A stretch of 45,006 bases of DNA, taken from IMG/VR virus record IMGVR_UViG_3300021364_000045, positions 1-45,006 of that record. One strand, written 5' to 3'. Below, in pieces: positions 3,676 through 42,905 of this stretch. The position numbers and the translations under genes were made by a program. Below the pieces are notes generated by a model. That model was not told the DNA's origin and made no database searches. It saw only the letters and a program-made list of their open reading frames with translations. Every line of letters begins with the position of its first letter. Within the stretch, counting starts at the first letter, position 1. The stretch is from a virus.

Positions 3676-3676
3676 T

Positions 3677-5989
3677 TTATGCCTCTAATTGTACTACTTT
3701 GAGAGTTACGGTAATTTGTTGTTGGGAACCACTACGATTCGTTACTGACGCATAAATGTTAGTGTTAGGTGTGGCTTCATAGTTGAATCCAATAGTTCCA
3801 GGAGTAATTTGTTGAGTGCCATCGACTCTAACTTCTGCAATAACACCTGATCCTGGTGATGGGTCAGTACCTTCCCCTCTATTTAGATCATTTGCTCTAG
3901 AAGCTGCAGTTGTATATAGTCTTACCCAAGCATCTGCTGACGTTGTAACTGCCAAAAGAACATAAGACTTGAAACCTGTGAGGTTTACATTTGAATCAGT
4001 TGTATCATTTGCAAGATTAGTTGTTGTGCCAGCAACATCAGTTCTTGCTTGCAGAGAACCTGATCCACCACCACCGCCACCAACAACCTCTGCTGGTGCC
4101 CATTGAGAACCATTCCACTGAAGATAATGTCCAGCAGTGATTGTTTGACCACCACCAGTTGTTCCTGCAGCAGATGAAACGTTAGCAAGATCACCAAGAT
4201 TCTGTGGAACTGTTGGTTTGTTTAGGATCTGTGCAACACCAGAAGTCGCATCCCAATCACTATTAACTTGAGTTGCTGCAAGGTTGGGAAGGTTCTGGAG
4301 ATTGTTGTAATCACCATACTCTGAAGGGATGGGGATATTATGGTAGGTCGTACCATCGTTGGTAAATTCCCACCTATCACTTGTCTCATTCCATCTGACT
4401 CTAGTGTCGTTAGAAGCAGAACGTTCAACAACAACTGAAGCATTTGCAGTTGGTGCGATAGGAATCGTCAGTTCAATGGCAGTCTGTGAACCAGAACCAC
4501 CAAAGTTTGTGTTGAGGGTAATCTGAGTGCCACTATCAATACTTGCAACAGTTGCTGCTCCAAGTGTCAGTGTTCCTGCATTACCAGTAATCGTTACCGA
4601 TGCACCTTGCGTTATTCCTGTAGTTGATGCAATGTTAGTAACAACTGCAGAGTTTGCAGAAGCATCACCAGTGAATACCCCAAGATTATCATTCAGAACA
4701 ACTTCATTGTTAGTGACATTCAGGGTCGCAACATTATTAGTTGTTGTGGTTCCAGTAACATTCAGGTTACCAGAAACTGTAACATCAGTGAACGTTGGTG
4801 AAGAGTTTACAGTAACAAGATTGGTTGGTTTGTTTTTGATGTATCCAACGTTTGATGTTGATGTTTGGGTCCAGTCTGCTTGAACTTGAGCAAATGGTTG
4901 ACCACCAAGATCGTTATAGTTCAGTTGGGAGTTTACCCAATTAGATCCGTTATATCTAAGAACCTGTGCAGTAGCAGGAGTGTTTACAACAACATCAGAC
5001 AGACCATCCAGATCGGATGCTCCACCAGTGCCACCACCAACAATACCTCCAACAGCACCACCACTCAGGTTAGAGAAAACACCAACCTTGAGTTCTTTAC
5101 CAGATGCAATGTTGAACGCTTGTCCAGATCCTACGTTGATGTTATCGCAGAAAGTATAAGCATAATCTGTAGATGGATTTACAGTAACTGAAGAAGTTGT
5201 ATTCAGATCAGGAGCAAATCTAATCTCTGGTGTATTTGCATCAAGAGGAATATCGCCAACATTGAGTGATGCACCACCAGTTGCAACAGAACTCCAACCA
5301 GAACCATTGTGAGTTCTGAGTTCATTCAGAGCATCATCATAATAGATATCTCCTTCACCAAGACCTGCTGCGTTTGCTGCAATCTCGTCAGCATATCTGA
5401 CATATAATTTTTTTGAAGTTACCGAATCATCAGCAATCTTTGCTGTGGTAATATTTGCATCTTTGATGTGATCAGTGGTGATTGCTCTCAGAGCATCAGA
5501 AGTTGTGCTATTACCAATCTTAGATGAAACGACCGCACCATCTCTGATGTGATTATTGGTAACTGCTCTAAGGCTATCTGATGTGCCACTAGAAGATAAT
5601 TTAGCACTTGATACCGAATTATCCTGAAGTGCAGTAGTATCTACTTTATCAGCAAGATCTGCTGTTTCTAAATTGATATTGCCCGTTCTTCCTTCAAAAG
5701 TTTGAACGCCTGAAGGTGCAACTGATACAATATCAACACTCTTCTGAAGATAGCGAACAAGAATCGCATCTCCCTGAGCGGGTGTTGATGTAAAAGTAAT
5801 TTCGTTTTTTAGTGTGCCACCAATTTCATATTCTTCAGTGTTCTTCAGAACACCATTGATGAACACAAGCAATTCCGTATCCTCGTTTACGGATTTTGAA
5901 AGTGTTTCTGTGGCGTTACCAGAAGCAGTGATCGACTGTTCAGCAAGATCAACTGTACTATTTTCTACTCCGTAACCGATATATGGCAT
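3677..5989 (-). CDS. Tail fibre protein (770 aa)
   Basis: This long, low-complexity fibre-like protein is rich in Thr, Ser, Asn and Val. Residues 1-90 (MPYIGYGVENSTVD, then VFINGVLKNTEEYEI, ITFTSTPAQGDAILVRYL) look like an attachment domain of the 'fingV' type common at phage fibre N-termini. Residues about 115-190 hold a tandem repeat built on SSAKL/TTAKI, (S/D)xLRA(V/I)T and HI(R/K)D. Residues about 395-555 contain the module shared with the 331-aa protein (VSGNLNVTGTTT, then RWNETSDRWEFTNDGTTY). A Gly stretch (VVGGGGGGSGS) precedes a C-terminal beta-rich domain. GGAG lies 9 nt before the ATG. It is probably a main tail-fibre subunit for host contact. Confidence 0.75.
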   Translation of the reverse strand: MPYIGYGVENSTVDLAEQSITASGNATETLSKSVNEDTELLVFINGVLKNTEEYEIGGTLKNEITFTSTPAQGDAILVRYLQKSVDIVSVAPSGVQTFEGRTGNINLETADLADKVDTTALQDNSVSSAKLSSSGTSDSLRAVTNNHIRDGAVVSSKIGNSTTSDALRAITTDHIKDANITTAKIADDSVTSKKLYVRYADEIAANAAGLGEGDIYYDDALNELRTHNGSGWSSVATGGASLNVGDIPLDANTPEIRFAPDLNTTSSVTVNPSTDYAYTFCDNINVGSGQAFNIASGKELKVGVFSNLSGGAVGGIVGGGTGGASDLDGLSDVVVNTPATAQVLRYNGSNWVNSQLNYNDLGGQPFAQVQADWTQTSTSNVGYIKNKPTNLVTVNSSPTFTDVTVSGNLNVTGTTTTNNVATLNVTNNEVVLNDNLGVFTGDASANSAVVTNIASTTGITQGASVTITGNAGTLTLGAATVASIDSGTQITLNTNFGGSGSQTAIELTIPIAPTANASVVVERSASNDTRVRWNETSDRWEFTNDGTTYHNIPIPSEYGDYNNLQNLPNLAATQVNSDWDATSGVAQILNKPTVPQNLGDLANVSSAAGTTGGGQTITAGHYLQWNGSQWAPAEVVGGGGGGSGSLQARTDVAGTTTNLANDTTDSNVNLTGFKSYVLLAVTTSADAWVRLYTTAASRANDLNRGEGTDPSPGSGVIAEVRVDGTQQITPGTIGFNYEATPNTNIYASVTNRSGSQQQITVTLKVVQLEA

Positions 5990-6643: not shown

Positions 6644-9600
6644 TTAGGTTACGTTGATTCTTGCCCTTACATAATAATTGGTTGACGATTCCAGGACGAC
6701 ATTAGAAGGTACTTCCAGTTCCAATAAATTCTCGGTATCTGTAAGTGACTCATAAATGACATTGCTAAATGAAGCATCGTCAGCAATCTGCCAATCAGTT
6801 GAAGTATGTGAATAGTTAGCAGTGTCATAGCTAACATTATTTAGGTTGATGGTTGGTCTCAGACTTGTTTCAATTGGTAGATTGAATACTGGTTGATCAA
6901 CAACGTTTGTTGTAAATGCTACTGGAGAACTCCATGCACTATCAAAACCAGCACTATCTCTATATCTAACTTCTACTGTATAAGTAGTGTTCCAATCAAG
7001 AACAGGAGCCAAGAATTCAATTTTTTGTCCACTATCTCCAGCAGGATCAAAGTCTACAGCAGTTGTATAAACAATCTGTCCATCACTCACTCTAGTAATT
7101 CTCCAGAATGAATATTCGTGACCATTACCAAGATAACTGATGAAGAGGCTAGATTGAATTCTAGGTTGTCTTACAAAAGTTTTGGTGGTTATGGCATCTA
7201 CAAATCCTGCAGGGTTGATAGTAGGATTTGCAATAAACTGAAGTGTCAGGATTGCTGAGTTTGAATATGCAACTGCAGCACCTTCAGACTGAGCACTTAG
7301 ACGATAATAATAACCATTGTTTGTAGAGTCTCCAGTAACTGATAAATTATTTGAAATTGATGCAGGAATATCTGTCCAAGTAGCACCTTGATCAGAACTT
7401 ACCTGCCAAAGATAATTGATCGTTCTGCTGCTGGTAACAGATGCATTTGCAACAAACGTAACTGGAACACCAGCAGTAGTAGAAACGCTCTGGGGTTGTT
7501 GTGTAAAAGTAATGACTGGAGTCAATACTGTCAGAGTCGCAACATCAGATGTTATTGGTGAATTAGTTGCAGCAGGGTGACTAATGATGACTCTATATTG
7601 ATCACCATTGTCATTCGCAGTTACTGTTGCTGGAGTTGTGTATGAATTAGTTGTTTCTCCAACAAGTGGCGTCCATGTATTGCCATTATCATCTGACTTT
7701 TCCCACTGATATGTAACTACTGATGCATCAGATGCATTAGCAGTTACCGTGAAATTGGCCGCATCAGGTTGATATCTTGTTTGATCTTGTGGTTGAGAAA
7801 CAATTGCAAGTGTAGGTCTGACATTGACAGTCAGAGTTGCTGCGTTAGATGTAATATCTCCTGCAGAACCTACAAGACTTACGACAACTCTATATTGATT
7901 TCCACTTGCTGAAGTAGCTACATTAGAAATAGTATACGAGTTATTGACAGCACCAGTAATAGGTGTCCAAGTAGAACCAGAATCTGTAGACTCCTGCCAT
8001 TGATAAGTTGCAGTTCCGCTTGATACTGTAGTCGCTACACTAAATGTAACGTTCTGAGTATCATAAACTGTTTGATCAGTTGGTTGAGTATCAATGGTGA
8101 AAGTTCTTTGAACAGTCAAGATGACTGCATTAGCAACAACTGATCCAAGACCAGGAATCGATCCAGTTACGCGATAATAATCATCATTATCATCTGCGTA
8201 TGTTGTACCTGAAACCGTCAGAGAGCTTGAAGTTTCCCCTGCAACTGTCGTCCAAGTAGATCCTTGATCATCAGATCTTTCCCATAGATATGTGATTGGG
8301 AGACCACTATTTGTGGACATGGCAACAGTAAATGTTGCATCTGTACCTTCGTTTACAGTCTGATTTGTGAGTTGAGTATCAACTGTAATCGAACCCTGAG
8401 TTACAGTCAGAATTGCAACATCAGATGTCAAAGGAGTATTGACTGCTGAAGTCGATGAAACCTGTACTCTGTATTGATATCCAGTGTTTCCTGCTGGAGT
8501 TTGAATGCCACTCAATGAGAGAGTTGCATTTGTTTCTCCAGTCATTGTGGTCCATGTAGAACCATTGTCAGATGACTCTTCCCACTGATATTCCAGAGGA
8601 ACATCATCAGTGCTTGCTGCCGTTACTGAGAATGTTGCAGTCTGACCTGAGATGATTGAAACATCTGCTGGTTGTGACGAAATGGTCAGGAAAGATCCAA
8701 CATACTGCAAAGGCATTGCGTTGGAATATGTGGTTGCTGATCCAGAATCAGTAATCTCTAATCTAATCAGAAGATTATTAATTGCAGAAGTATCGTCTTT
8801 GATCGTCAGAGTTGTGTTGGTTTCACCAGAGAATCCAATTTCAGATGCAGCAATGTTTGTCCAAGTTGCTCCATTATCAGAACTCTTCTGCCACTGATAT
8901 GTGTGTGGTGCAGTTCCTGGTGCTGTATCATCAACAGTAATTTCTCTTGGGTTACTTCCACCACCTTTTGCAAGGACGGTCATACCATCTACCCAAATGT
9001 CATTTACATTAAAACCACCATTTGTTGGACCATTAGGGTTATTTCCACCTGGATCAGATGGTACAAATGCAGATCCTGGTTGATAATATGCTTGTCTCAG
9101 TGATGTACCAAAGATGTATGGATATACAGGAACATTACTTGAGTCAACAGTAATAAAGTATGCATATGTTCCATTTGGATATTCTGGAGTTACACCATAA
9201 CGTCCGTTTGAACTGTCAAGTGTTCCAGATCCTGGAGAATAAGTAAAGTCTTGCAGGAATGAACCTGCAGTCAGAGTTACTGACTGACCACTAACAGTAA
9301 TAGTATCGGTATATTTGAAACCTACAGGTCTATGGGTATCAGTATTGAGTTGACTAAATGATGAAGTCATTCTCGTAGGAGATGACGTATTATCATTGGC
9401 GTTTGTATAACCCCATGGACCATAAATTGGGTGACCATCAAATGCCCAACCAATGATCTTAGAGTGACCATCAGGATGGCGGAAGCTATCTCCGTTATAA
9501 TTTGTTGTTTGATAATATGAATTTCCTTGTGCTACTGCAATCCAGTCGCCACTGAATAAGAATGTACCGCTGTGATAATGATATTCACCATTTTGTTCTG

Positions 9601-12600
9601 GATGTCCACCAGCACTGTCTACACCATAATAAAATTCATTGTGAACAGCATTATACTCAAATCCTGGTGGTGGATTGTCTTGACTTCCTGGGAGAGCACC
9701 AGGACCAGCAGATGGGTTGAATAAAACAACACCATTAGATGCGATACCAAGAGCACCAAGAGTCCATGGTGTCAATGATGGTGAGTTTGTACCACCTCTA
9801 TAAAAAATTGTATGATTTAGAGTTTGTGCTGAAGTAGTATTTGGATTAGCGCCGTTTGGATGTGGACCATGAGTTGCTGGATCTGGAAGTTGATCAGAAA
9901 CAATCGTCATCAAATACTCTGAAGCAGAGAAGTTGCTGCTTGTCAATGACAAACTATCATCAGCACTTACTCCATTTGGTCTAATGATATTGATTGCCGA
10001 TCCAACCTGAGTTTGAAGTACCGTTAGAACTTGTGCAGTGGATGTAACTGAACTGTAGAAAGAAGTTGAGTCAGCATCAGAAGTCCCTCCAGTTGTGGTA
10101 AAGTCGTAATAGATACGTGATCTAAATGAATAACCATTCAAAGATAATGGTGGTAAAATTTCAAGTGTTCCTGTTCCAAGTCCAGATGTATACCAGGGCT
10201 CAGTTCCATCAATATACGTATAACCATTTCCATCATCATATTCCCAGAGAATTACTCCATTTGGAACTGCGGGTGTTGAAAGATTTGTATAAGTTACTGT
10301 AAAAGTATATGGCGTGCTTTGATTGACACTACCTGTAGCAGGAATATCTGTGCCGACACTATAGACTGGATCAACACTAACTACTCCACTTGTTCCTCCT
10401 TGAGTTTGTGAAACAAGCAGTTGTGGATGATCAATAAGAACAACTAATTGAGCACCATCATCACTAGGATTGAATCCATCAATTGATGCTTCACCAACTC
10501 TTACACTGTAGAGTTGATGTCCATTAGATCCAGTTTGTCCTTGAAGTGCTTCGATTCCATATGGACTACCAGGAAGATACGAAGGATTTGCTGGCGTTGC
10601 CCCAGGATCATAACCAAGAGAAATTATTGGGGTAGATCCATCACTGAAAGTCGCTTCAATTTCTACTCTACCTGTATTTGCTCCAGCAAAAATATTTGTC
10701 AGAGAAGCATTATCCCAATAAGTATTATGAGTAAGTGTTACTGTAGCAGTGAAGGTTCTTGCTAGAGTTCTAACATCCGCAGCATTTCCCGAATCTGCAG
10801 ATACTACGCATGAGAAGAAGTAACCACTTATGTCAGTACTATCAGGAACAGTCAAAGTTGCTGTATTGACACCACTGACATTAGCAAGAACTGCTGCATC
10901 ATTCCACTGTCCATTATTGACTGCTGCTTGAGTTGTAGCATACTGCCAACCATAACTCAAAGATCCTGCATCAGAAGCAGATGCTGTAACAGCAAAAGTA
11001 GCAGTTCCACTATCTACTGGATATGATCCATCTCCAGTTGCATTAGATGGTTGAACATCGATTGTAATAGTTGCATTGTTTGTACCAGAGTTGGTCCAAG
11101 AGAAATCAGCAGTTCCTTGAGAAACTTTCTCTCTTACTCTAATCGTATATGTAGTATCACTCGGTGAAGAAATAGTTGTTCCTGAGAGAATACCTGTTGA
11201 AGCATCGAAAGATAAACCTGATCCATCGATCGTATATACACTACCAGATAATGTAAATGCTGAAGAAGCACCACTGTCCAGTTCATACTCCTTTGTCATA
11301 AAGGGTTCTGGATCTTCACCAGCAAATGTTGTAATTACTGTGGAGATTGTAGAATTTACACTAGATCCATTAGCATAACCAACACCAGATAATGCTGGGG
11401 TAATTGAATATGCTGCGTTGAGATCAATAAATGGGAAGAAGACACCTTGACCACCATCGTATGTAACTGATGTAGTGCCTGTAGCAACTGGATCATACTG
11501 TCTGTAAACTCCAGTTAGATCTGGGAAATTTGCAACTCCTTCAGTTCTGCCACCAGCGCGTGGTGCTGACCCCCAACGACCGCCAGAAAGACGTAATACA
11601 GAAGACTCCTCTAATCCATCTGGACCAATTATTGATGTGTCTCTATCAATATATTCTTTTGGAACTCTAGATTTTGGTACAGGGAAATTCTTGATCTGTA
11701 CTCCACCACTATATTCCTCAGACTCTAATTGTGCCCAAAGTTCACCTGCAGCATATGCATTACCATCTGGGCTGGTTCCAGATCTAACAACGTTTGAATA
11801 GTTATTGATCCAATTATAGACAGCATCATTCTCAAAGAAAGTTCCTTCAATCTTTGTAAATCTCATTGGCCATCTTGGACGACCATCAACGAATATATCA
11901 GAATCTGCCTTGTTGAAGATACCACCACCACCTTGTTCGGTGCCAGTTGCAGCAGTATCTGCGGTGAATGTAATAGTTTTATTTACTGAATCAATTGAGG
12001 TTACAGTTCTCCACTTAGAGCAGAAATCTGCCAGAGAAATGCCACCAATTGTTGCTTCAGTAATAGTTGAAACACTTGTCAACTCTGCACCCATCGATGG
12101 GTGATTATCACAATAGTAATAATAAGATGCTGATGTGTTAGTAACATCTGGGTGAGTATCTCCTCTAGGATCAATAAATTCAATAAAGCATTCAACACCA
12201 CCACCTACAGCACCAACATAAGTTGCTCTATCAACTTCGCCTTGACCAGCAACAACAAAACGCATACAATGCTTTGGATTCAGATCAAGATCAATCATAT
12301 AGGCATAGAAATCCTGCCCACTGTTATGAGTTCCATCTGAAGTTGGTGAGATGTTTAGTGGGTGAGTTAGGTTACTAGCATCTGTCTGAAGGAATCTGTA
12401 AACTACACCTTGCTCAAGAGCAATTACTGGTTGAGCTGACGCTGTTCCTGCAACACCATTCTGAATTCTGGCAAATTCAAATACTCCATTAGCAACTGTA
12501 ACTTCATATTTTACAACTTCTCCCAGGTTGAAAGTATCTTTCTTTCTTTCACTTGAAAGAAGAGTTCCTGAATTGTATGTAGAAATATCATCTTCAACTC

Positions 12601-14590
12601 TTGGGAATTCAAATTCAAAAATATCACCTTGCTGAGGATTCAGTGCAGTATATACTGCATCATGAAGCGAAAGTACAACATCAGTACTGCCATTTGTAGT
12701 GCTAAGAGGATATCTCTTGGCAGTATCATTGGCATTAGTTGTCATGAAATAAGTGGTTGCCGCACCTGCACTAGTACGAACTGTATTCTGGAATCCAACT
12801 TGAGTTGGAGTAGATGCAGTAATGTCAACAAATCTCAGTTTCTTCTCTGCATTTTCTTCAACTCTTTCCTGACCAGTTGCTCCAGTTGCTCCATCATAAA
12901 TATCTCTCCAAACTGCAATCATACCTGCAAGCAACGGAGTGGAGAACGACGTTCCACTGATTGTTGCATGAGAAGATCCTGAATAATCTGTTCCACTAGT
13001 AGGAGTATTAGTTGTCCAATCATAACTTGGACAATAAATGCCTTGACCTGGAGCATAGCAAGTGACTGCTTCACCGTAGTTTGTAAATGATGCAAACGTT
13101 TGGCGGTTGCTAGCAATACGGGTAGCACCAACAGTAAATTTATCTGTTGCGCCGAATGTTTCGTTTGATTTATTTGTAATACTGATTTCTGGATCAAGGA
13201 ATGATTGGTATCCAGCATCCCTTGCACCATAAGTAATTTTTGTATTTTTTGGACCATAATCTTGAGGATTATCCTCTGAGTCCGTCCAAGTCATGCCGTT
13301 ACCAGCAGATCTACAGAGAGTGACTCTTGATAAAGATGAAATTCTTGCCTCAGCATCACTATACATTTCATCCCAGTTCGAGCTTGCCAAGTTAGCTTCT
13401 TGAACTACAATCGAACCAGTCATTCCACTATGAAACTGGCAAACGTATGTCAGAGTACCGCTATTACCAGAGATTTGTGAAGTGTCAATAGTAACTTCAC
13501 CAGTTTGATTATCTCCACTAGTTGTTGTAGCACCAGCAAATGAACCATTAGCATCATTGACCAAGAATGGGTGTCCAGATGCATTCATGTTCATAACAAG
13601 AATGTCACCTTTGGTAACAGTCAGAGTCGGATCATTTGCATTGGTATGAGTTGTGGTTGCATCAGTACCAGTAAATGTATAGTCACTGGCACCATTGTTA
13701 CCTACATTGAGATTATATGTTTGTGGAACATAGTTTTCATTTCTCCCCATGAAAGGAAATTCAGGAGTAGGGGAATTCAAACCAATACTTACATTGACAA
13801 CAGCAGACCTTGGTCTTGTGCCACCATCAAGAGTATTACCTTTGAACGCCGAATCGTTGGGGTCATTGTGACGATAGATAGCATCAAATGCCTCCAACAT
13901 CTTGGAGTTTGTAATATCACCAGCATCATTTGAAACTCTAAGAGCATAGATCTTGGCTTTATTTGCTACACCAGAATATCTACCTGCTGCCATCATGGCG
14001 CAGTATGTTCCATGCCCTTTAGTTACAGAACCACCTACTGTTTGTGGTTCATTTCCGTTTGTAGTCCCTGGATCATATAGAGATGTTGGAAGTTCGTATA
14101 CTCTATAATATCCTTGATGAGTTGTATTATTTAAATCGGTATAATCTGGATGAAAAAATTCTGGATGAAGCCCTGCACCAGATCCTGTTGGTCTGCTAGC
14201 ACCTTGAACACCTGAGTCAATAACATAGATATCTACATCTTCACCATCACTTCTAGTAGAGAATGATCCAATGTTTGGATTGGAATCGTCATAATCTAAT
14301 CTTGAAATTGCATCAAGATGCCAATATCTATTACCAGAAGTTGTTCCTGGAACATAAGTGCTTCTGGTTGCATGGAACTCAAAGTTACTATGATCTTTAG
14401 AAACATTGCCCAACTCTAAGGCAGAAATTTCATTATAAAGTCTTTCTTGATCATCGCCGTCAAAGATGATTATGTCTAGACTTTTTAGAATCTTATATGA
14501 ATCAATAGTTACGGAGGAAGAAACATCAGTCGCGATCTGCTCTAGAGATGCAGAAGGGGATGTTCTTTTGAGCAGGACTTTATTAGACAT
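6644..14590 (-). CDS. Giant virion protein with subtilase, cupredoxin, YHYH, Ig-like and FN3 domains (2648 aa)
   Basis: Residues about 1-75 resemble a subtilase I9-type propeptide. A peptidase S8 domain spans about 115-580 with the full set of motifs: Asp125 (VIDSG), His193 (GHGTYCA), oxyanion Asn431 (SAGNG) and Ser548 (GTSFSTP). A cupredoxin-like domain is inserted at about 298-398, with ligands His340, Cys384, His387 and Met390 in the C-x2-H-x2-M spacing known from amicyanin. A second copper-type domain covers about 690-843 (His743, Cys827, His830, Met833). A YHYH domain follows at about 1590-1835, with a literal GEYHYHSG near 1667. Six Ig-like repeats, each with a YQWQ/YLWE core, occupy about 1870-2455, and two FN3-like domains end the chain. 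There is no signal peptide. The gene overlaps the 71-aa gene by 8 nt. Role (inference): an exposed virion protease or adhesin. Confidence 0.85.
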   Translation of the reverse strand: MSNKVLLKRTSPSASLEQIATDVSSSVTIDSYKILKSLDIIIFDGDDQERLYNEISALELGNVSKDHSNFEFHATRSTYVPGTTSGNRYWHLDAISRLDYDDSNPNIGSFSTRSDGEDVDIYVIDSGVQGASRPTGSGAGLHPEFFHPDYTDLNNTTHQGYYRVYELPTSLYDPGTTNGNEPQTVGGSVTKGHGTYCAMMAAGRYSGVANKAKIYALRVSNDAGDITNSKMLEAFDAIYRHNDPNDSAFKGNTLDGGTRPRSAVVNVSIGLNSPTPEFPFMGRNENYVPQTYNLNVGNNGASDYTFTGTDATTTHTNANDPTLTVTKGDILVMNMNASGHPFLVNDANGSFAGATTTSGDNQTGEVTIDTSQISGNSGTLTYVCQFHSGMTGSIVVQEANLASSNWDEMYSDAEARISSLSRVTLCRSAGNGMTWTDSEDNPQDYGPKNTKITYGARDAGYQSFLDPEISITNKSNETFGATDKFTVGATRIASNRQTFASFTNYGEAVTCYAPGQGIYCPSYDWTTNTPTSGTDYSGSSHATISGTSFSTPLLAGMIAVWRDIYDGATGATGQERVEENAEKKLRFVDITASTPTQVGFQNTVRTSAGAATTYFMTTNANDTAKRYPLSTTNGSTDVVLSLHDAVYTALNPQQGDIFEFEFPRVEDDISTYNSGTLLSSERKKDTFNLGEVVKYEVTVANGVFEFARIQNGVAGTASAQPVIALEQGVVYRFLQTDASNLTHPLNISPTSDGTHNSGQDFYAYMIDLDLNPKHCMRFVVAGQGEVDRATYVGAVGGGVECFIEFIDPRGDTHPDVTNTSASYYYYCDNHPSMGAELTSVSTITEATIGGISLADFCSKWRTVTSIDSVNKTITFTADTAATGTEQGGGGIFNKADSDIFVDGRPRWPMRFTKIEGTFFENDAVYNWINNYSNVVRSGTSPDGNAYAAGELWAQLESEEYSGGVQIKNFPVPKSRVPKEYIDRDTSIIGPDGLEESSVLRLSGGRWGSAPRAGGRTEGVANFPDLTGVYRQYDPVATGTTSVTYDGGQGVFFPFIDLNAAYSITPALSGVGYANGSSVNSTISTVITTFAGEDPEPFMTKEYELDSGASSAFTLSGSVYTIDGSGLSFDASTGILSGTTISSPSDTTYTIRVREKVSQGTADFSWTNSGTNNATITIDVQPSNATGDGSYPVDSGTATFAVTASASDAGSLSYGWQYATTQAAVNNGQWNDAAVLANVSGVNTATLTVPDSTDISGYFFSCVVSADSGNAADVRTLARTFTATVTLTHNTYWDNASLTNIFAGANTGRVEIEATFSDGSTPIISLGYDPGATPANPSYLPGSPYGIEALQGQTGSNGHQLYSVRVGEASIDGFNPSDDGAQLVVLIDHPQLLVSQTQGGTSGVVSVDPVYSVGTDIPATGSVNQSTPYTFTVTYTNLSTPAVPNGVILWEYDDGNGYTYIDGTEPWYTSGLGTGTLEILPPLSLNGYSFRSRIYYDFTTTGGTSDADSTSFYSSVTSTAQVLTVLQTQVGSAINIIRPNGVSADDSLSLTSSNFSASEYLMTIVSDQLPDPATHGPHPNGANPNTTSAQTLNHTIFYRGGTNSPSLTPWTLGALGIASNGVVLFNPSAGPGALPGSQDNPPPGFEYNAVHNEFYYGVDSAGGHPEQNGEYHYHSGTFLFSGDWIAVAQGNSYYQTTNYNGDSFRHPDGHSKIIGWAFDGHPIYGPWGYTNANDNTSSPTRMTSSFSQLNTDTHRPVGFKYTDTITVSGQSVTLTAGSFLQDFTYSPGSGTLDSSNGRYGVTPEYPNGTYAYFITVDSSNVPVYPYIFGTSLRQAYYQPGSAFVPSDPGGNNPNGPTNGGFNVNDIWVDGMTVLAKGGGSNPREITVDDTAPGTAPHTYQWQKSSDNGATWTNIAASEIGFSGETNTTLTIKDDTSAINNLLIRLEITDSGSATTYSNAMPLQYVGSFLTISSQPADVSIISGQTATFSVTAASTDDVPLEYQWEESSDNGSTWTTMTGETNATLSLSGIQTPAGNTGYQYRVQVSSTSAVNTPLTSDVAILTVTQGSITVDTQLTNQTVNEGTDATFTVAMSTNSGLPITYLWERSDDQGSTWTTVAGETSSSLTVSGTTYADDNDDYYRVTGSIPGLGSVVANAVILTVQRTFTIDTQPTDQTVYDTQNVTFSVATTVSSGTATYQWQESTDSGSTWTPITGAVNNSYTISNVATSASGNQYRVVVSLVGSAGDITSNAATLTVNVRPTLAIVSQPQDQTRYQPDAANFTVTANASDASVVTYQWEKSDDNGNTWTPLVGETTNSYTTPATVTANDNGDQYRVIISHPAATNSPITSDVATLTVLTPVITFTQQPQSVSTTAGVPVTFVANASVTSSRTINYLWQVSSDQGATWTDIPASISNNLSVTGDSTNNGYYYRLSAQSEGAAVAYSNSAILTLQFIANPTINPAGFVDAITTKTFVRQPRIQSSLFISYLGNGHEYSFWRITRVSDGQIVYTTAVDFDPAGDSGQKIEFLAPVLDWNTTYTVEVRYRDSAGFDSAWSSPVAFTTNVVDQPVFNLPIETSLRPTINLNNVSYDTANYSHTSTDWQIADDASFSNVIYESLTDTENLLELEVPSNVVLESSTNYYVRARINVT

Positions 14591-14799: not shown

Positions 14800-17700
14800 T
14801 TATGCGCTAGCGATACATCTTAGATCTTCAATTTTTGGAACATATGCTGGTCCCTTCTCATCATTCAGTCTCATGATAATTTTGACAGAGAACTCAGAGA
14901 ACTCTGGAAGATCTTCAACTGTGAACTTATATTCCTTGAAGGAATCAGCAAATTCTTGTGATGGATCAAGGATGTCTGAATCATCAACTTCAATATCATC
15001 TGCATTATCTGCTAAACCACTTGTCTCCTCATCGAAGTCAACTGGGAAGATGAACGCTTCTGCAACAGCAAGTTCAGTTGGAGCACCAGCAGCAGTAACA
15101 TTATTGACTGTGACCTGAACTCCCGATCCACCACCAGCACCATCAAAAGTAGGATCAAATGTTAGATATTCTCCAACTTTATACCCAACACCTGGAGAAT
15201 TCAGAACTACTGAAGAAACATTACCATTTGCATCTACAGTGATATCAAAGGTTGCTCCAGAACCAGCAGATGGAAGATTTGTGGGTGAATTTGGATCATA
15301 GATAGCTGCTACACTAGAATAAGAACCCTGAACATAACCCGCACCACCGCTGGTCAATGTTTGGTTTCCAGTCAAAGCATTTCCTGTTCCACCTGTATTT
15401 GAATCAATTATAACTCTAGGAGCAGACAGGAATCCAGATCCTCTCTTGGTAACCAAAATGTTAGTGAGAGTATTTGTATTAGTATCAATCACAGGAGTAA
15501 CTTCAGCACCATTTGCTGGTTCAAGAGTTACTGCTGGTGCAGTTGTATATCCTGCTCCACCATTTGTAATTTCAATCGATCTAATAGAAGATTTCTCAGT
15601 AAACTTAGGATTGAAGTATCTCCATGGTTGTGAACTGATAATCTTATCAGATGAAGTAGGTCTGATTCGATACATTACTTGAATGTCTTTGTTAGCAAAT
15701 AGATTTGCTGTCAAACGAACATCAATATTAGTAGCAGGGTTTTCCAGATTTACTGTCTTAGTCTGATACTTAGCACTATGTGATCCCATTTCACCTTCTT
15801 CTTCAGTTCTATAGAGGAATCCTCCACGATCAATAGGATCTGTTTGGAGATAATAGTCTGTAGATGCTCCAACAACCTGGAATACATATGGGGTCAGAGA
15901 TGCAGTTGTTTGTGGTGGAGCAAATCTCATTCCTTGCTGAAGAATGAGTTCACCAGAAGCACTATTTACATTAGTAGTAGGAATCTTCAGATATCTGATA
16001 TCAATATATTTTTCCTCTTGGTTTATACCAACAACCTCTGCTTGAATTATACCTGTTGAAGCTGATTCAATAGATCCTGTCACAAAGTTTCTAACTCCAT
16101 TTGGATCTACCTTATAAACGTTCTGGATTACAGAACCAATTCCAATACCACCAATTTCTGCAGTACCGCCAAGTGAAGGGGTATTATCAAAAGGATATAA
16201 GCGATAAACCTTATATCCAAATCTTGCTTGATCTGGCATTGGTTTATCAATTCTATTAGAAACTGTAAAGAGACTTACACGATCAAGATCAAGCACAGGA
16301 GAAACCGCATCATTTGTGGTTGACATGGTTATGTTGTACTTCAGAGACTTTCTACCATCATTTCTATAGATTTCATTGATTTCAGAAAGAACTGCATAGT
16401 TATCAGTCAGATAAGTATTCCTACCAGGAACAACAGAAATTGTTTCAGTTGAGAATGCATTTGGATTGTCATAATCAACAGAGTCTGCTTTCAAGGCATC
16501 GATGGTGTGCGAAACATTACAACTTGGGAATTGAAGAAGAGAGACTTGAGGTTGTAAAGTCTGGAACTGCTGGTTTTCAGTTGCATATGCAAATACTCCA
16601 CCGCCCCTACCACTTTCAGTTGCCTGATCATTCTGAGAGTTAGGATCTTTTGAAATCAGAACATCATATGAATCTATACCAACATTCAAAATTTGATGGA
16701 TAGAGTTCATCTTAGAAATGGCGATTCCATTCATAAGAGCATCTCCTGTACCAACACCCTGAACTCCCTTGAGAATCACGTAATCGCCCTCTGACATTCC
16801 ATGGTTCTTGTGAGATACTCTTACAACTCTTGGATTAGAACCAAAGAGGTTGTCAGCATAAGCAGAAGGTGCAGATGCACTGCTGTAAATACTTTCCCCG
16901 ATCGAGTTGCCACCTCTATAAGAGAGTTTATTGGTTTCAAATGGCGCAGGACCCATTCTGATGAATGGCATCTTATCATTTACAAGTTCGACAGATGCTG
17001 TAGATGTTGTGGAGAACTTAGCACGATTCAGAGTAAACTTGACATCTTCAAACTGATCAGCAGTCCAAAGAGTAGAGTTCTGAGACTTGAACAGAGATCC
17101 AAGATATGGTTGAGTAGAAACTCTCTGTGTTGTCCCAATTTCATTCTCACCAAGGCGAGAGATATACATGTTGTAATCGATGCTATTTGAAACAACAACG
17201 AATGCATATTCAGTATTATTTTCAAGATAAATTGGTGATGGGAACTTGAACTTGGTTCCAACACTTGCATCATCTGAAGTACCTACTCCCATCTCAACTG
17301 CATGAGATTCTCCTCTAATTCTGGAAATCGCTGTTGCTCCAGCACCATCACCCTCGATTGAAACTGAAGGTTCTGAAGTGTAACCAGATCCTGGATTAGT
17401 AACTACAATCTCAACAATTCTTTGGAGTCTTGCATCAATTTTTGCATATGCAGTTGCTTGTACACCACCAACTTGTTGTGGAGATCCAATTGTAACTGAT
17501 GCTGTAGTATAAGTTTCTCCAGTGTTTACCATCTCAATAGATGCTACCTGGAAAGAATCTCTTGCAATATTGACAATAGAAGTTGGTTCTGGGAATCTTT
17601 GAATTGAAAGAACTTCTCCTGGTTGGAAGTCAATTCCATTATGATTACTCAACTCAAGAGTATATGTTGTATTGCTGAAGTTTACTGTAGTAGTTGTTCC

Positions 17701-20700
17701 TGTAATCTCTAAATTAGTTTTGACAGTTCCATTTGCACCAGAGGTCAGTCCAATAACAGTTTCTCCAGCAACGAAGGAAACTGCACTATCACTTACAATC
17801 TTCAACTTAGTTGTTGGATTGACAGTAACTTCAGAGAATGGAATTGTTTTCTTGCCTGGAGTTCCAAGAAGAGTTTCAGTCAGATAGCATCTAGTTGGTA
17901 CATTTTCACTCTTTGATTGGAAGAAGACTTCCAGACTTGAGAGGAACATACCATCTTGATATCCTTCAACCATGAAAGTCTGAGCAACAGGGTCAAAGTA
18001 GTTTGTATTTGCTTCTTGATTAGTTCTAACACCATCAACAAACTGAGTCTGGTCTTGCTCAGAAACAGATCTTTGAGTAATGGTAGGAACTCTCGTAGAA
18101 ACGATAGTTTCCTGCACAGTCTCCATGAGACCCATTGCAAAGTATTCTGCTTCTGAGAAGGTATCTACATCAACTTCTCTTTCACTGTTTACAGAACTGG
18201 AAGTAAGTCTGAACGTTCTTTCACCAACTCTGAATGTTCTTGTAGAACTAGAAGTGTCATAAATGATATCATCCAGATTTCCAGTAAACCTTTGGAAATT
18301 GTATGATGAATCGGAAGAACTTGTAGAAACTCTTCTACGATCCAATTCATCATCAGAAATTCCTCTAGTAGCGAGTTCATTAGTAACATTAGTGGTAAAT
18401 TCTCTAAGAGGAGCTGCGCCATTGGGAATGATAAAGACACCACTAACATTACCATTATCATCAGTAATGATTGGTTGACCAAATCCTTTAGGAGAGTTTA
18501 GTGCCTCTCCAGTGTAGTTGTTATCTGGGCAAACCCATGCACTAACATCAATACCCTCAAAGAATGCGTAGAGGCGAGTATTTGGTTTGAGTGCTGTAGA
18601 AGTAAATCTTACTACTCTTGCTCTCATATTTGGTTGGAATGCCATTCCAACTACTCTATCACCAAAACTTTGCTGAACTACATTAGATCCAGCAAGACGA
18701 TTTTGTGTTCCCTGTCTAGTTCTGGTTCTTGTTCTGCCCATTACACTAGTAGTAGTGTTGACAGTTACACCAGCAACTAGAAGGTCTCTAGTTCTACCAG
18801 AACCATTTGGATTTCTAATCCTCAGATTCTGTGGAAGATTTCTTTGGAAATCTCTCATCCATGGCATCAAGTTGCCAGTTGAAGATGTATCTCTAGCAAG
18901 TTCTTGCTGACCACTCCAAGAAGTCTGCCATTCATTCCAAACAGTACCAAGAACACCGTTCTCGTCTGCCATATTCTGAATGGTGTCAAAGAGATTGTTG
19001 TCGTTGACAACCAAGTTAGGTCTTCTCTCAGTATCCTTCCACTCATCAAAAGGAGGATCAAGAGTAAGAGATCCTTTATACTGGAACACCAAGAATGGGT
19101 TCAGGTTGATAGTTTCAGTAGCAAATGGATTCTTGATAAACTCTTGCTCAGTATAATCAAGAGTAATCAAACTTCCTGCCTTTTTGTAACCCTTAGCAGA
19201 TCTTGATGCATCATCAGTTACCTGCTCTCTAAGAGATACTTGATTTGTAAAATGCTGTGGTCTCAGTTGCTGAGACTGCATGTCAATAGCACACTTATAT
19301 TCAGTAGAGAAAGTGTCTCCAACATTATGTCCAGAGAAATTATCTACAACAATACCACTCTTGAATCTATCAAGACCTGTTACTGCATCTTTGATTGAAG
19401 TATTGAGTGTGTCTTGCTCAAGAAGACTGAGAGTGGTGTAATACTCCATTCTCTCAATACGATCTTCAAGTTTGCGAATATCCTTCATGGTATATCGCTT
19501 GTAATTATATACCTTGATCGATACCTCTGATGGATCAAATGTATATGCAGGTACATCAAGATCAAAGAGTCTGATAGACTCTTCAAGTGCTTGTGGATAT
19601 TCTGGGAGAATAGAAGGTACGCCTTGAACTACTTCAAATACACCTCTTCTTGTCAAATAGACACTATCCTTTCTTGGAAGATAGAAGTCATATGTGAGTT
19701 CAAATGAATCACCTGGAACAGGAACAAATGTATCTACCGTTGTAAATCTAAGTGCCCCAAGTTCTCCCTTATCTTCAGCACCAGCAACATATCCTATAGT
19801 TGATGTTCCAGCACCTATATCAGCAGAGGGTCTGAAGTCAATTGCATCTCTAAGTTGAATTGCACCACTCTTTTCTGAATAGAATACGGGAATATCATCA
19901 TAAAGAAGAGTAATATTGTTTGCATTCAGATAAGAATCAACGGAGAAAAATTCTCCATCATTAGAACTGTGATCAAAATATGTGAAGTCAACCAGAAGTT
20001 GACCACTTGGTTCCTCTGAACCTTTTTTACGGATCAATCTTGCAATGTCGTAAACATTGTCTCTTTGACCATTATCAAAGATGAAACGCTCTTTGATATC
20101 AATGTCGGTTACAAGAGCAGAAGCATCTGGATCAGCAGACATATAAACTGCATTTAGTTTGAATCCATCAACTTTACCAAGATTGATAATTTCTTTCTTG
20201 TTGTAAGTAGAAACTGCTAACTGGGCATTTTTGAGAATCTTAGTTCTTGGTCTAGCGTTTCTGATAAAAATAGGAGCAGTCAGTTTGATAACGGCACCAT
20301 TGAATGTCGAAGGGAGACCACTGAATACGATCTGACCGTTTGTTCCTCCTGTAGCAAGAGTTCTTTGATTTTCGTAGAGTGACAAATCAATAATGTCACC
20401 AACTGATAATCCACTACTAGTTCCAGCATCAGCGACAACTGCAGTGTATCTATTTGAGAAACCATCAAAGTCTCTATTCTCACCACTCAGAGTGAATGTA
20501 AGTGACCCACTACCGATAGTAGAAATAAATTGCTTGAGCGTCTTGAAGTTGAATCCAGTCTCAGTCTTATCTTTTGCAGTTGTTTTTACTACAGAATCTG
20601 GAGTTTTTAGAACCAAAGTATTTTTATCTGCTCCACCAACTCTTGCTTCAATCTTGAAGAGTTGTGCATTTGTTACATCATCAACAATAGAACCATAAAC

Positions 20701-23436
20701 ATATACTCTAGAGGTATTTGTAAGTAATGTTCCTCTTCTCTGAACATACTTTACGCTATATCTTCTCTCAACTCCAGCGTCAGATACAACTTTGATCAGA
20801 TCATTAGACCTCAGGTTTTTTCTAGGATCAGCAGTCAAACTGGTAATTTCAAAATAAGTATTTGATGCCTTTCCGTTTACCTGTGCAATTTCGATTGCAT
20901 TATAGAAGTTTTCGTCATCAAGAATTGTATCTGCAGAGAACTTGCTGTTAGCAGCACCACCAGAGATAGACTTGATGTCCTTCATGGTATAAGTTCTTAC
21001 AGTGTCACCCCAAAGATCAACTTCGAGCAATGCTGCAGTACCTGTAGTCATTGTAATTGTCGCTACAGGAACACCACTGTAAACAGTTGCATTATCTGAT
21101 TTGAAGTGCCATTTATTTGGGAAAATGTCCCCACTTGATTCTCCATCATCAAGTTCAACAGTCATCAGTCCACCAATTGAGTTGACATCTAACTTATATG
21201 GAAATAATTGACCACCAACTGCTCTATCTAATCTTACAGACTCTAAGCTATTCAGATTAGGACCAATTTTCAATTCTGTTGTTGCAGTTGGATTGGCAAT
21301 TTGAGAATAACCAGATCCGCCATCAAGAACTTTGATTGATTTGATAGTGCCGTTTTTGATGATTCTTGCCTGTGCTCTTCTGCCCTCATTGCCATAATCT
21401 GGATCTGTGACGATCAATTCACCATCTTTGAAGGTTCCAATAACATTTGAAAGGATAATTTCATCCCAACCCTCTGCACTAAAAGATGCTTCAACAATAC
21501 CTGTTGCACCAGAAGATGAACCTGTAATCTTTGCACCATAAGTTTTTACACCACTGGCATAAGCACCAACAGTTACATTACTATGTACTTTCAAAGATGT
21601 GAATGTTGTAGTATCAAAAATGCCAAGTCTAAAGATTGAATCGCGATTATCTTTACCAGAAATCAGACCATTACTGTCTGTAGTAGTAGAAACCGATGAC
21701 AAATATTTTGCATGGGCGCAACCAATAGGAGTAGAAGAAAGTTCATCTACACGTCTTACAATTGCTCTATCAGTTCCACTAGAAACATTTGATGTATTTA
21801 CGTCTTGTACAGTAGTACCAGTTTGAATAAAATCTCCCGCAGTCAGGGAAACTAGCATGGTATAAACACGGCGAGCATTAGATCCTGATGTAATGCCATT
21901 TTGTGCGGTTCCTGCAGGAGCATCTGCTCCTCTAAGAATAGATCCTTCAACAATGTTCCCAGTTTTATCTGAAGGTTGCTGATTGCTGGTCGCCATACCA
22001 CCAATCAAAGAATCTGTCCAATCAAAAGTTGCTTGTGCGTCTAAATTCTCAATTTGAACAAGATAATAACGCAATGGAGCAGAACCTCTACCACCACTAC
22101 TAAGACCTAAGTAAGAGTCTGTAAATCTTCCATAAAACTTGAGTTGCGATAGTGCTTCTGTGCTAACAGATCCAGAAACAATGTTATCAAGATCAATTGA
22201 ACCAAAAACATTCTGAACATTCAAGAATGCACCTTGAGGAACAGAGATACTTGCTCTTTCTCTAGTTAAAGTATCTCTTGCTCTATCAAAAGTTTTGAAT
22301 TTTGTACCAGTGCTTTCAATTTCATATCCACGAACATATGCCTTACCTGGAGAAATTGCTGCAACAATGGAATCTTTTGAATCATCGAAAGAAAGACCAT
22401 TATATGTGCCGTCATTACCTAGAGGATAAACTCCATTGTTTTCTCCATCATCATCATGGTTTTTGATTTCTAAACCATAATTTCTTACAATGTAGTCTCC
22501 AGACTCATCATAAGTTCTTCTTGCAAGAATCTCTTCAATATCAGACCATGATTTCTTCTCTACCTTTCTCTCAATGATTCCATCTCTAATTCTGAGAAGT
22601 TCAATGAAGTTGTTCTCAACAGCAGCATCAATCAATCTAGATGCCAGAGTGAGTGTAATCTTGAGACGATGAGCACCAGGAGCAGCATAGTTGCTGAAAC
22701 CAGCAGCGTTATCATTCAGAGAATTATCTTCATCTGGAGTAATAAGCTCTTCCTGTACGAGGAAACCAACTCTACAAGTTGGAGTAGTTGAATACTTATC
22801 AACAATAAGTGTTTGAGCAGCATTACGTACAAAATGCCCATTGACGTAATAAATACCTTCTTGAATAAAGACAGCAGAACCATTCCCCGTTGCGGTATTC
22901 TGTGTCAGTTCCAGAGTGGTGGCAGAACCAAATGGTTTATAAACAGTTGGTCTTGCAGAACCTGTAATTCCTACGACGGCAGTTGGAGAACCAACAATAT
23001 CAGAAGAAAGAATTTCACCTTCTTGGAATCTTCTATTTGTTGTAGCAGTACCACTGCTTTCATATCTTACAAAAAATGTTGCAGAATCTGCTGAGGTTTC
23101 CTCAGTAGCATTCAATACTTTCGCTACAACACCAGTAGTTTCGCCAGTCAGAGTAGCACCCAAAAATTGTGAGAGGGTGAAACCCTGAGAAAAACTAGAA
23201 ATTTTTACATATGCATAGCTATTGTTGAAAGATACCTCTCCAGGGACCACCATGGATCCCTCTTTCATGAGGTATTTTCCAACACTTTCAACTTGATTTT
23301 GAAGAACTGACTGTAATGTCGTCAGTTCTCTTGATTGAATTGAATATCCTGGTCTAAAAAGAACTCTGTAAAAATCCTTATTAGAATCAAAATCGTCGTA
23401 GTAAGGAGTTACATTTAGATTCGTACTCTGTGGCAT
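14800..23436 (-). CDS. Giant baseplate/tail structural protein with DUF4815-type N-terminus (2878 aa)
   Basis: The N-terminus (TPYYDDFDSNKDFYRVLFRPG, then SRELTTLQSVLQNQVESVGKYL) has the signature of DUF4815 phage proteins. Around residues 1310-1380 a helical block reads YTMKDIRKLEDRIERMEYY and then TGLDRFKSG, also typical of this family. GSGY beta-repeats occur singly near residues 709 and 2015 and as a run of four near 2620-2780. The family is usually several times shorter, so this version is greatly expanded. The gene lies directly after gp8, where T4 has gp9/gp10, so it is probably a baseplate-peripheral protein that connects fibres (inference). GGAAG lies about 9 nt before the ATG. No signal peptide or membrane segment is visible. 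Confidence 0.8.
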   Translation of the reverse strand: MPQSTNLNVTPYYDDFDSNKDFYRVLFRPGYSIQSRELTTLQSVLQNQVESVGKYLMKEGSMVVPGEVSFNNSYAYVKISSFSQGFTLSQFLGATLTGETTGVVAKVLNATEETSADSATFFVRYESSGTATTNRRFQEGEILSSDIVGSPTAVVGITGSARPTVYKPFGSATTLELTQNTATGNGSAVFIQEGIYYVNGHFVRNAAQTLIVDKYSTTPTCRVGFLVQEELITPDEDNSLNDNAAGFSNYAAPGAHRLKITLTLASRLIDAAVENNFIELLRIRDGIIERKVEKKSWSDIEEILARRTYDESGDYIVRNYGLEIKNHDDDGENNGVYPLGNDGTYNGLSFDDSKDSIVAAISPGKAYVRGYEIESTGTKFKTFDRARDTLTRERASISVPQGAFLNVQNVFGSIDLDNIVSGSVSTEALSQLKFYGRFTDSYLGLSSGGRGSAPLRYYLVQIENLDAQATFDWTDSLIGGMATSNQQPSDKTGNIVEGSILRGADAPAGTAQNGITSGSNARRVYTMLVSLTAGDFIQTGTTVQDVNTSNVSSGTDRAIVRRVDELSSTPIGCAHAKYLSSVSTTTDSNGLISGKDNRDSIFRLGIFDTTTFTSLKVHSNVTVGAYASGVKTYGAKITGSSSGATGIVEASFSAEGWDEIILSNVIGTFKDGELIVTDPDYGNEGRRAQARIIKNGTIKSIKVLDGGSGYSQIANPTATTELKIGPNLNSLESVRLDRAVGGQLFPYKLDVNSIGGLMTVELDDGESSGDIFPNKWHFKSDNATVYSGVPVATITMTTGTAALLEVDLWGDTVRTYTMKDIKSISGGAANSKFSADTILDDENFYNAIEIAQVNGKASNTYFEITSLTADPRKNLRSNDLIKVVSDAGVERRYSVKYVQRRGTLLTNTSRVYVYGSIVDDVTNAQLFKIEARVGGADKNTLVLKTPDSVVKTTAKDKTETGFNFKTLKQFISTIGSGSLTFTLSGENRDFDGFSNRYTAVVADAGTSSGLSVGDIIDLSLYENQRTLATGGTNGQIVFSGLPSTFNGAVIKLTAPIFIRNARPRTKILKNAQLAVSTYNKKEIINLGKVDGFKLNAVYMSADPDASALVTDIDIKERFIFDNGQRDNVYDIARLIRKKGSEEPSGQLLVDFTYFDHSSNDGEFFSVDSYLNANNITLLYDDIPVFYSEKSGAIQLRDAIDFRPSADIGAGTSTIGYVAGAEDKGELGALRFTTVDTFVPVPGDSFELTYDFYLPRKDSVYLTRRGVFEVVQGVPSILPEYPQALEESIRLFDLDVPAYTFDPSEVSIKVYNYKRYTMKDIRKLEDRIERMEYYTTLSLLEQDTLNTSIKDAVTGLDRFKSGIVVDNFSGHNVGDTFSTEYKCAIDMQSQQLRPQHFTNQVSLREQVTDDASRSAKGYKKAGSLITLDYTEQEFIKNPFATETINLNPFLVFQYKGSLTLDPPFDEWKDTERRPNLVVNDNNLFDTIQNMADENGVLGTVWNEWQTSWSGQQELARDTSSTGNLMPWMRDFQRNLPQNLRIRNPNGSGRTRDLLVAGVTVNTTTSVMGRTRTRTRQGTQNRLAGSNVVQQSFGDRVVGMAFQPNMRARVVRFTSTALKPNTRLYAFFEGIDVSAWVCPDNNYTGEALNSPKGFGQPIITDDNGNVSGVFIIPNGAAPLREFTTNVTNELATRGISDDELDRRRVSTSSSDSSYNFQRFTGNLDDIIYDTSSSTRTFRVGERTFRLTSSSVNSEREVDVDTFSEAEYFAMGLMETVQETIVSTRVPTITQRSVSEQDQTQFVDGVRTNQEANTNYFDPVAQTFMVEGYQDGMFLSSLEVFFQSKSENVPTRCYLTETLLGTPGKKTIPFSEVTVNPTTKLKIVSDSAVSFVAGETVIGLTSGANGTVKTNLEITGTTTTVNFSNTTYTLELSNHNGIDFQPGEVLSIQRFPEPTSIVNIARDSFQVASIEMVNTGETYTTASVTIGSPQQVGGVQATAYAKIDARLQRIVEIVVTNPGSGYTSEPSVSIEGDGAGATAISRIRGESHAVEMGVGTSDDASVGTKFKFPSPIYLENNTEYAFVVVSNSIDYNMYISRLGENEIGTTQRVSTQPYLGSLFKSQNSTLWTADQFEDVKFTLNRAKFSTTSTASVELVNDKMPFIRMGPAPFETNKLSYRGGNSIGESIYSSASAPSAYADNLFGSNPRVVRVSHKNHGMSEGDYVILKGVQGVGTGDALMNGIAISKMNSIHQILNVGIDSYDVLISKDPNSQNDQATESGRGGGVFAYATENQQFQTLQPQVSLLQFPSCNVSHTIDALKADSVDYDNPNAFSTETISVVPGRNTYLTDNYAVLSEINEIYRNDGRKSLKYNITMSTTNDAVSPVLDLDRVSLFTVSNRIDKPMPDQARFGYKVYRLYPFDNTPSLGGTAEIGGIGIGSVIQNVYKVDPNGVRNFVTGSIESASTGIIQAEVVGINQEEKYIDIRYLKIPTTNVNSASGELILQQGMRFAPPQTTASLTPYVFQVVGASTDYYLQTDPIDRGGFLYRTEEEGEMGSHSAKYQTKTVNLENPATNIDVRLTANLFANKDIQVMYRIRPTSSDKIISSQPWRYFNPKFTEKSSIRSIEITNGGAGYTTAPAVTLEPANGAEVTPVIDTNTNTLTNILVTKRGSGFLSAPRVIIDSNTGGTGNALTGNQTLTSGGAGYVQGSYSSVAAIYDPNSPTNLPSAGSGATFDITVDANGNVSSVVLNSPGVGYKVGEYLTFDPTFDGAGGGSGVQVTVNNVTAAGAPTELAVAEAFIFPVDFDEETSGLADNADDIEVDDSDILDPSQEFADSFKEYKFTVEDLPEFSEFSVKIIMRLNDEKGPAYVPKIEDLRCIASA

Positions 23437-40160: not shown

Positions 40161-40189
40161 ATTATAAAGCATGGAGAGAGTCGTGTCAA
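40161..40189 (-). promoter_or_regulatory. Perfect consensus sigma70-type promoter
   Basis: On the minus strand TTGACA (40189-40184) and TATAAT (40166-40161) are separated by exactly 17 bp. This is the full bacterial sigma70 consensus, upstream of the 48-aa basic protein gene whose ATG is at 40137. The TTGACA overlaps the TGA stop of the 792-aa gene. A 6-bp inverted repeat (AGAGAG at 40175-40180 with CTCTCT at 40192-40197) brackets the -35 element and could be an operator or terminator-like stem. A perfect host-type promoter inside a late block is unusual. Confidence 0.75.
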
Positions 40190-42564: not shown

Positions 42565-42905
42565 TATCCAATTTCTAATGCAGGTGCTGCAGGTGCTGAA
42601 GTAAATACTGGTGCTCCACCCGCAAAACAATTAGGGGATCCCTTGGCTACTGCGGTACATGTAGCATCACTCACACGCCCACCACCAACACCATTGACAA
42701 TGACTGTCCGTGATCCGATAGTAATCGGTGCAGCATGTGTCGGACAGGGACTGCCAGGAAGTAGGTGAGCAGTATTATTATCACCCTGCCTACTCCATGG
42801 TATATTATTGATAAACACATCAGGTGATCCCTTTGCTCTGACCATGCCAGAACAATGAGGAACATCTGCGTCTCCAATTCTAGTGATTGGCATTGATGCT
42901 GCCAT
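42564..42905 (-). CDS. PAAR-repeat baseplate spike tip protein (113 aa)
   Basis: This 113-aa protein contains PAAR-type motifs: PITRIGDADVPHCSG at the start, SPDVFINNIPWSRQGD, CPTHAAPITIGSRTVIVNG and a C-terminal PNCFAGGAP. His and Cys residues (HCSG, PCPTHA, DATC) are well placed for the metal-capped cone seen in PAAR tips. T4 gp5.4 is the equivalent; it caps the gp5 spike and helps pierce the outer membrane. A strong AAGGAGG lies 4 nt before the ATG, and the ATG shares a base with the upstream TAA. Confidence 0.9.
   Translation of the reverse strand: MAASMPITRIGDADVPHCSGMVRAKGSPDVFINNIPWSRQGDNNTAHLLPGSPCPTHAAPITIGSRTVIVNGVGGGRVSDATCTAVAKGSPNCFAGGAPVFTSAPAAPALEIG

Follow-up and report, generated by a model that had tools for sequence, protein, structure and literature searches.

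A multidomain protein in the baseplate cluster of an S-BM3-like cyanophage

The 45,006-base virus record analyzed here in full (IMGVR_UViG_3300021364_000045; the window) is that of an S-BM3-like cyanophage: bases 121–25000 match Synechococcus phage S-BM3, a member of the Kyanoviridae with Synechococcus WH7803 as its isolation host, at 90.9% identity. On the minus strand (6644..14590) it codes for a 2648-aa multidomain protein of the tail/baseplate region, which is the ortholog of the S-BM3 'peptidase S8' (WDS61281.1; 91% identity over residues 1–600). The gene lies in a tail/baseplate block with those for gp8, gp6, a baseplate-wedge-like protein and a PAAR protein, and its position in this cluster suggests that the product is a component of the virus particle. 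The protein combines a subtilase (peptidase S8) with two cupredoxin-like domains and a YHYH domain (9137..9760, minus strand, residues 1611–1818; Pfam PF14240, E=1.2e-37), and also carries Ig-like repeats. Single-sequence searches were too weak, and profiles were required; the second cupredoxin-like stretch (residues ~690–840) and the YHYH domain had been missed in the initial annotation of this DNA.

Three further regions of note in the window also lie on the minus strand. The 2878-aa neighbor (14800–23436), named 'virulence associated protein' in S-BM3, contains a DUF4815 domain (E=2e-61) and belongs to phrog_358, whose function is unknown. A 3849-aa ORF (25185–36734) has three YHYH stretches (PF14240, E=9e-55), and the region at 40186–42630, next to the PAAR protein at 42564–42905, specifies Ig-like repeats and then a stretch so rich in glycine that it resembles an adhesin tip.

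The subtilase core and its probable propeptide

The catalytic domain, split by an insert, spans residues ~85–580 (12851..14338, minus strand). It is recovered above the family cut-off by Pfam Peptidase_S8 (E=3.8e-10), and the profile of its S8 clade retrieves aqualysin (E=7e-15) and proteinase K (E=8e-13) from the PDB. The catalytic residues, all on the minus strand, occupy their canonical motifs: Asp125 in VIDSG (14216..14218), His193 in GHGT (14012..14014), the oxyanion Asn431 in SAGNG (13298..13300) and Ser548 in GTSFS (12947..12949). The interval 12949–14218 singled out by the initial annotation corresponds exactly to the stretch from the Ser548 codon to the Asp125 codon, and its proposal of an intact subtilase is borne out, each of the four residues being kept in 35/35 aligned full-length rows. 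At the level of sequence, this conservation rules out a degenerate, inactive relative; the subtilase appears intact and is predicted to be proteolytically active.

Structure prediction, which had been suggested as a check, yields a confident cupredoxin for the insert (see below), whereas the C-terminal half of the S8 domain in the AlphaFold2 model of residues 1–600 is of low confidence (mean pLDDT 61.5), too low for this model alone to demonstrate that the triad residues come together. With this model as the query, Foldseek matched both copper proteins and subtilases, aligning it with the pro-subtilase 3afg and PCSK9. The N-terminal ~75 aa (14366..14590, minus strand) adopt a β-α-β-β-α-β arrangement in the model, formed by the first ~65 residues, with pLDDT values mostly of 70–92 up to residue 60. 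No Inhibitor_I9 match was obtained in this region by sequence searches; from the predicted structure, it is probably an I9-like subtilase propeptide.

A cupredoxin nested within the subtilase

The insert, which we term CupA, comprises residues 289–399 (13394..13726, minus strand). Alignment with the insert-free homologs from Prochlorococcus phages P-HM1, P-HM2 and MED4-213 (hereinafter the P-HM1 group) delimits it cleanly between '..VVNVSIG..RNENY' and 'NLASSNWDEMYSDAEARI', agreeing with the initial placement of a complete cupredoxin between the His and Asn elements. The VNVSIG strand before CupA is presumably the S1-pocket strand of subtilases, and the segment after it the helix preceding the oxyanion-Asn strand. 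The spacing between the catalytic His and the oxyanion Asn reflects the insertion, being 238–248 aa in the proteins with the nested domain versus mostly 117–123 aa in the other relatives.

Modeled alone by AlphaFold2 with an alignment of its own family, the insert reaches a pLDDT of 94.8 and a pTM of 0.88; the model is almost entirely β, with 10 strands in the Greek-key β-sandwich typical of cupredoxins. Foldseek against the PDB places the cupredoxin domains of Cu nitrite reductase at the top (E=1.2e-5, TMq about 0.55), followed by laccases and, lower, by pseudoazurin and by an azurin carrying a grafted CTPHPFM loop, while the fold matches in BFVD include phage S8 proteins, tail fibers, gp9 and one YHYH protein. 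In profile comparisons with PDB sequences, the CupA family matches rusticyanin (3.4e-6), plastocyanin (1.2e-5), Cu nitrite reductase (2e-5) and amicyanin (7e-5), the further matches shown being to other cupredoxin-fold copper proteins. The epithet 'amicyanin-like' used in the initial annotation hence holds for the loop spacing but not for the family, for which the first three of these proteins score better. Amicyanin is the electron carrier of methylamine dehydrogenase, and no such enzyme was seen in the window. As for the Pfam families to which the annotation had pointed, Peptidase_S8 is matched and Inhibitor_I9 is not, whereas for Copper-bind the insert on its own stays below threshold (E=0.0075; 17.1 bits versus a cut-off of 21.2) but all 17 CupA family members match, and the copy in the relative L037 exceeds the cut-off (24.0 versus 21.2).

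The four residues proposed as copper ligands, His340 (13571..13573) and the loop C384-x2-H387-x2-M390 (13421..13441), both on the minus strand, coincide in the profile matches with the part of rusticyanin that holds its ligands. They are invariant in 51/51 near-full-length domain copies, collected from relatives retrieved with protease patterns and from named phages found by protein search, a count that is conditioned on detection by an HMM which some of the same rows were used to build. In a larger alignment (A6; 59 rows), only eight of the 118 columns show no variation, and the ligands account for four of these. The search patterns bias this result, which is hence only consistent with the above; the 59/59 ligand conservation was set aside because many rows had been retrieved with patterns containing C, H and M. 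Between the window and three more distant contigs (L021–L023), the insert is just 37–41% identical as against 53–69% for the flanking protease core, and all four ligands are kept. A chance copper-site motif was considered and is ruled out by the invariance of the ligands across diverged copies together with the confident fold. By fold, ligand set and sequence family, the insert is a type-1-copper-type cupredoxin, predicted to bind copper.

The second cupredoxin-like domain, of a distinct type (CupB), lies after the core at residues ~690–840 (12071..12523, minus strand), with H743, C827, H830 and M833 as its corresponding residues. It was detected with our own CupB HMM (E=5e-9, with a second matching piece), the PDB profile match being weak and confined to pseudoazurin (E=0.41).

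Phyletic distribution of the nested form and mobility of the module

Among the sequences examined, the nested form is restricted to the window, S-BM3 and five IMG/VR contigs (L001, L002, L021, L022 and L023); a first alignment scan for relatives had returned two already known loci and nothing further. The catalytic residues and the ligands are kept in every relative of this group; the insertion itself is absent from the core of the P-HM1 group. On a tree of the core, a branch supported at 98/100 sets the nested group apart from the 32 rows of its clade that have no insert. Both one gain and one loss of the domain fit this topology because the tree has a midpoint root and a very long outgroup branch. 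The domain order also differs: the P-HM1 group has CupB between the propeptide and the core, with many members additionally having CupA after the core, whereas the protein from the window has CupA within the core and the CupB-like domain after it. In subtilase clade 1, CupA or CupB is found in 77/78 ORFs, the exception (L038) running off its contig. A second, distant subtilase clade, typified by phages ACG-2014e/i/j, S-CAM4 and S-H9-1, has CupA at the C-terminus in 55/81 ORFs and lacks it in 26/81; the counts for both clades come from retrieval by protease patterns only. The latter 26 imply that proteolysis in clade 2 needs no cupredoxin. In two contigs, a subtilase is followed by tandem cupredoxin copies (the 1025-aa ORF from position 863 of L136 and the 1041-aa ORF from position 464 of L182).

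The module also occurs with no protease, at the C-terminus of the gp9 baseplate-fiber connectors of cyanophages Syn9, S-SSM5, S-RIM8 and P-RSM4 (L196–L199), which combine a T4_gp9_10_N domain with a cupredoxin that has the full ligand set and is unannotated. A second kind of nesting is seen in YHYH domains, with CupA being inserted into those of two cyanophage-like contigs (residues 1368–1478 in L037 and 1313–1425 in L040) and of the Actinomycetia phage DSL-LC01 (L017, ORF 3023–4393). In total, 161 records of sequenced phages contain a member of the CupA family, as do at least 556 viral-contig stretches; the annotated carriers are largely structural or uncharacterized proteins in which the cupredoxin itself is unnamed, and the cellular matches in one genome scan were mostly from marine Bacteroidetes. 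On this comparative sequence evidence, we identify CupA as an accessory module, with a conserved copper-type site, that has been shuffled among the structural proteins of marine phages.

Functional implications

We propose, with about an even chance of being right, that the 2648-aa protein is a self-maturing, tail-associated subtilase equipped with a metal-stabilized, substrate-placing cupredoxin, drawn from a module that often rides on subtilases. The enzyme would mature by removing its own propeptide and thereafter, at the tail tip, cleave proteins of the host surface or of the virion. Its cupredoxin, a complete type-1-copper-type domain inserted in a loop presumably beside the substrate cleft, would serve at the edge of this cleft as a rigid accessory domain by which the substrate is positioned or selected, a role which the location of the insert suggests. 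Against this reading stand the 26 clade 2 subtilases that lack the module and the scarcity of copper in the bacterial cytoplasm, where the site might stay unloaded until lysis.

One could instead regard CupA as a generic β-sandwich module akin to the phage Ig-like domains, providing spacing or adhesion, with the metal site serving mainly to stabilize the fold and bearing no link to the protease. Its occurrence on gp9, on tail-fiber-like proteins and in tandem arrays agrees with such a role, as do the Ig-like repeats of the 2648-aa protein itself. However, the frequent pairing with subtilases in two clades (77/78 and 55/81) and the retention of four ligands in all 51 copies counted, which is stricter than a plain spacer requires, render this somewhat unlikely. 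A neutral insertion, which the protease tolerates in one of its surface loops and which has no function in the nested group, would account for the distribution by a single gain or loss on the tree, and for the insert differing more than the core among the more distant nested members; yet the same diverged contigs keep every ligand at 37–41% insert identity, and we consider this very unlikely.

The initial annotation had raised a more specific role, namely that the nesting could make the protease dependent on copper or redox state. In such a gate, the nested domain would switch the enzyme on upon contact with the host or after release, either by being loaded with copper or through its Cu(I)/Cu(II) state. 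The insert adjoins the S1-side strand of the cleft (a strand assignment drawn from knowledge of the family), and the nested group retains all ligands and catalytic residues. Against this, in relatives that share this protease the cupredoxin lies outside the core, and about a third of clade 2 lacks it, so gating is not a general property. As the module moves around the protease, also sits on non-proteases such as gp9 and is nested in YHYH domains, the copy in the subtilase is probably no dedicated copper switch. Copper gating is hence not the simplest reading, and as a specific mechanism we find it unsupported and distinctly unlikely. A further elaboration builds on the copper-poor state of the bacterial cytoplasm, owing to which the cupredoxin might not be loaded before lysis: cyanophage tails might contain a family of true copper proteins that sense inside from outside, being assembled copper-free, with copper uptake following release or on contact with the host altering the nested cupredoxin and unlocking the subtilase. 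This we deem more improbable still. Finally, a blue-copper domain might shuttle electrons or copper with a partner such as YHYH, or disturb plastocyanin-type transfer in the host. The type-1 ligand set is complete, and the YHYH domain in which CupA is elsewhere nested has been predicted to be a metal-dependent hydrolase (PMC7824862), but a hydrolase needs no electrons and no redox partner was identified within the window, making this idea highly unlikely. A tail-associated subtilase with a substrate-placing cupredoxin therefore remains our preferred reading.

Comparison with known systems

The protease and the cupredoxin are each of a known kind, whereas neither their nesting nor the wide occurrence of the module seems to have been described: we found no paper in the open-access literature joining a cupredoxin with a cyanophage, virion or tail fiber, in keeping with the initial impression that the arrangement is unfamiliar. 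The closest insert-free relatives are the S8 peptidases of the P-HM1 group, labeled T4-GC 519 in their GenBank notes; an S8 peptidase of this group, T4-GC518, was reported in 2010 (PMC3037559). The P-HM1-group proteins share the core (~42% identity), the catalytic residues and the presence of cupredoxin-like domains, but differ in having a core without the insert, with the cupredoxins placed behind the propeptide and downstream of the core instead. S-BM3 WDS61281.1 has the same nested cupredoxin with no difference of note, although the domain is unannotated there. The subtilases of ACG-2014e/i/j, S-CAM4 and S-H9-1 (phrog_9158) possess a cupredoxin that shares 40–46% identity and every ligand with the insert, but belong to the distant S8 clade and have it at the C-terminus instead of nested.

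Amicyanin, plastocyanin, rusticyanin and the three-domain Cu nitrite reductase have the same fold and the His plus Cys-His-Met set, with amicyanin also sharing the C-x2-H-x2-M loop; unlike CupA, they are free electron carriers or parts of oxidoreductases, are un-nested, and resemble it at the profile level only. A precedent for an accessory domain inserted into the S8 core is the PA domain of cucumisin- and C5a-peptidase-type subtilases, which differs in having another fold, no copper ligands and a point of insertion after the oxyanion Asn rather than before it. What is known of cyanophage cupredoxins mainly concerns plastocyanin (petE), a photosynthesis protein derived from the host; CupA is a separate family with a strict ligand set that is repeatedly tied to proteases. 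Should these domains hold copper, the particles of such marine viruses would contain metalloproteins, and copper could matter for their adsorption or maturation.
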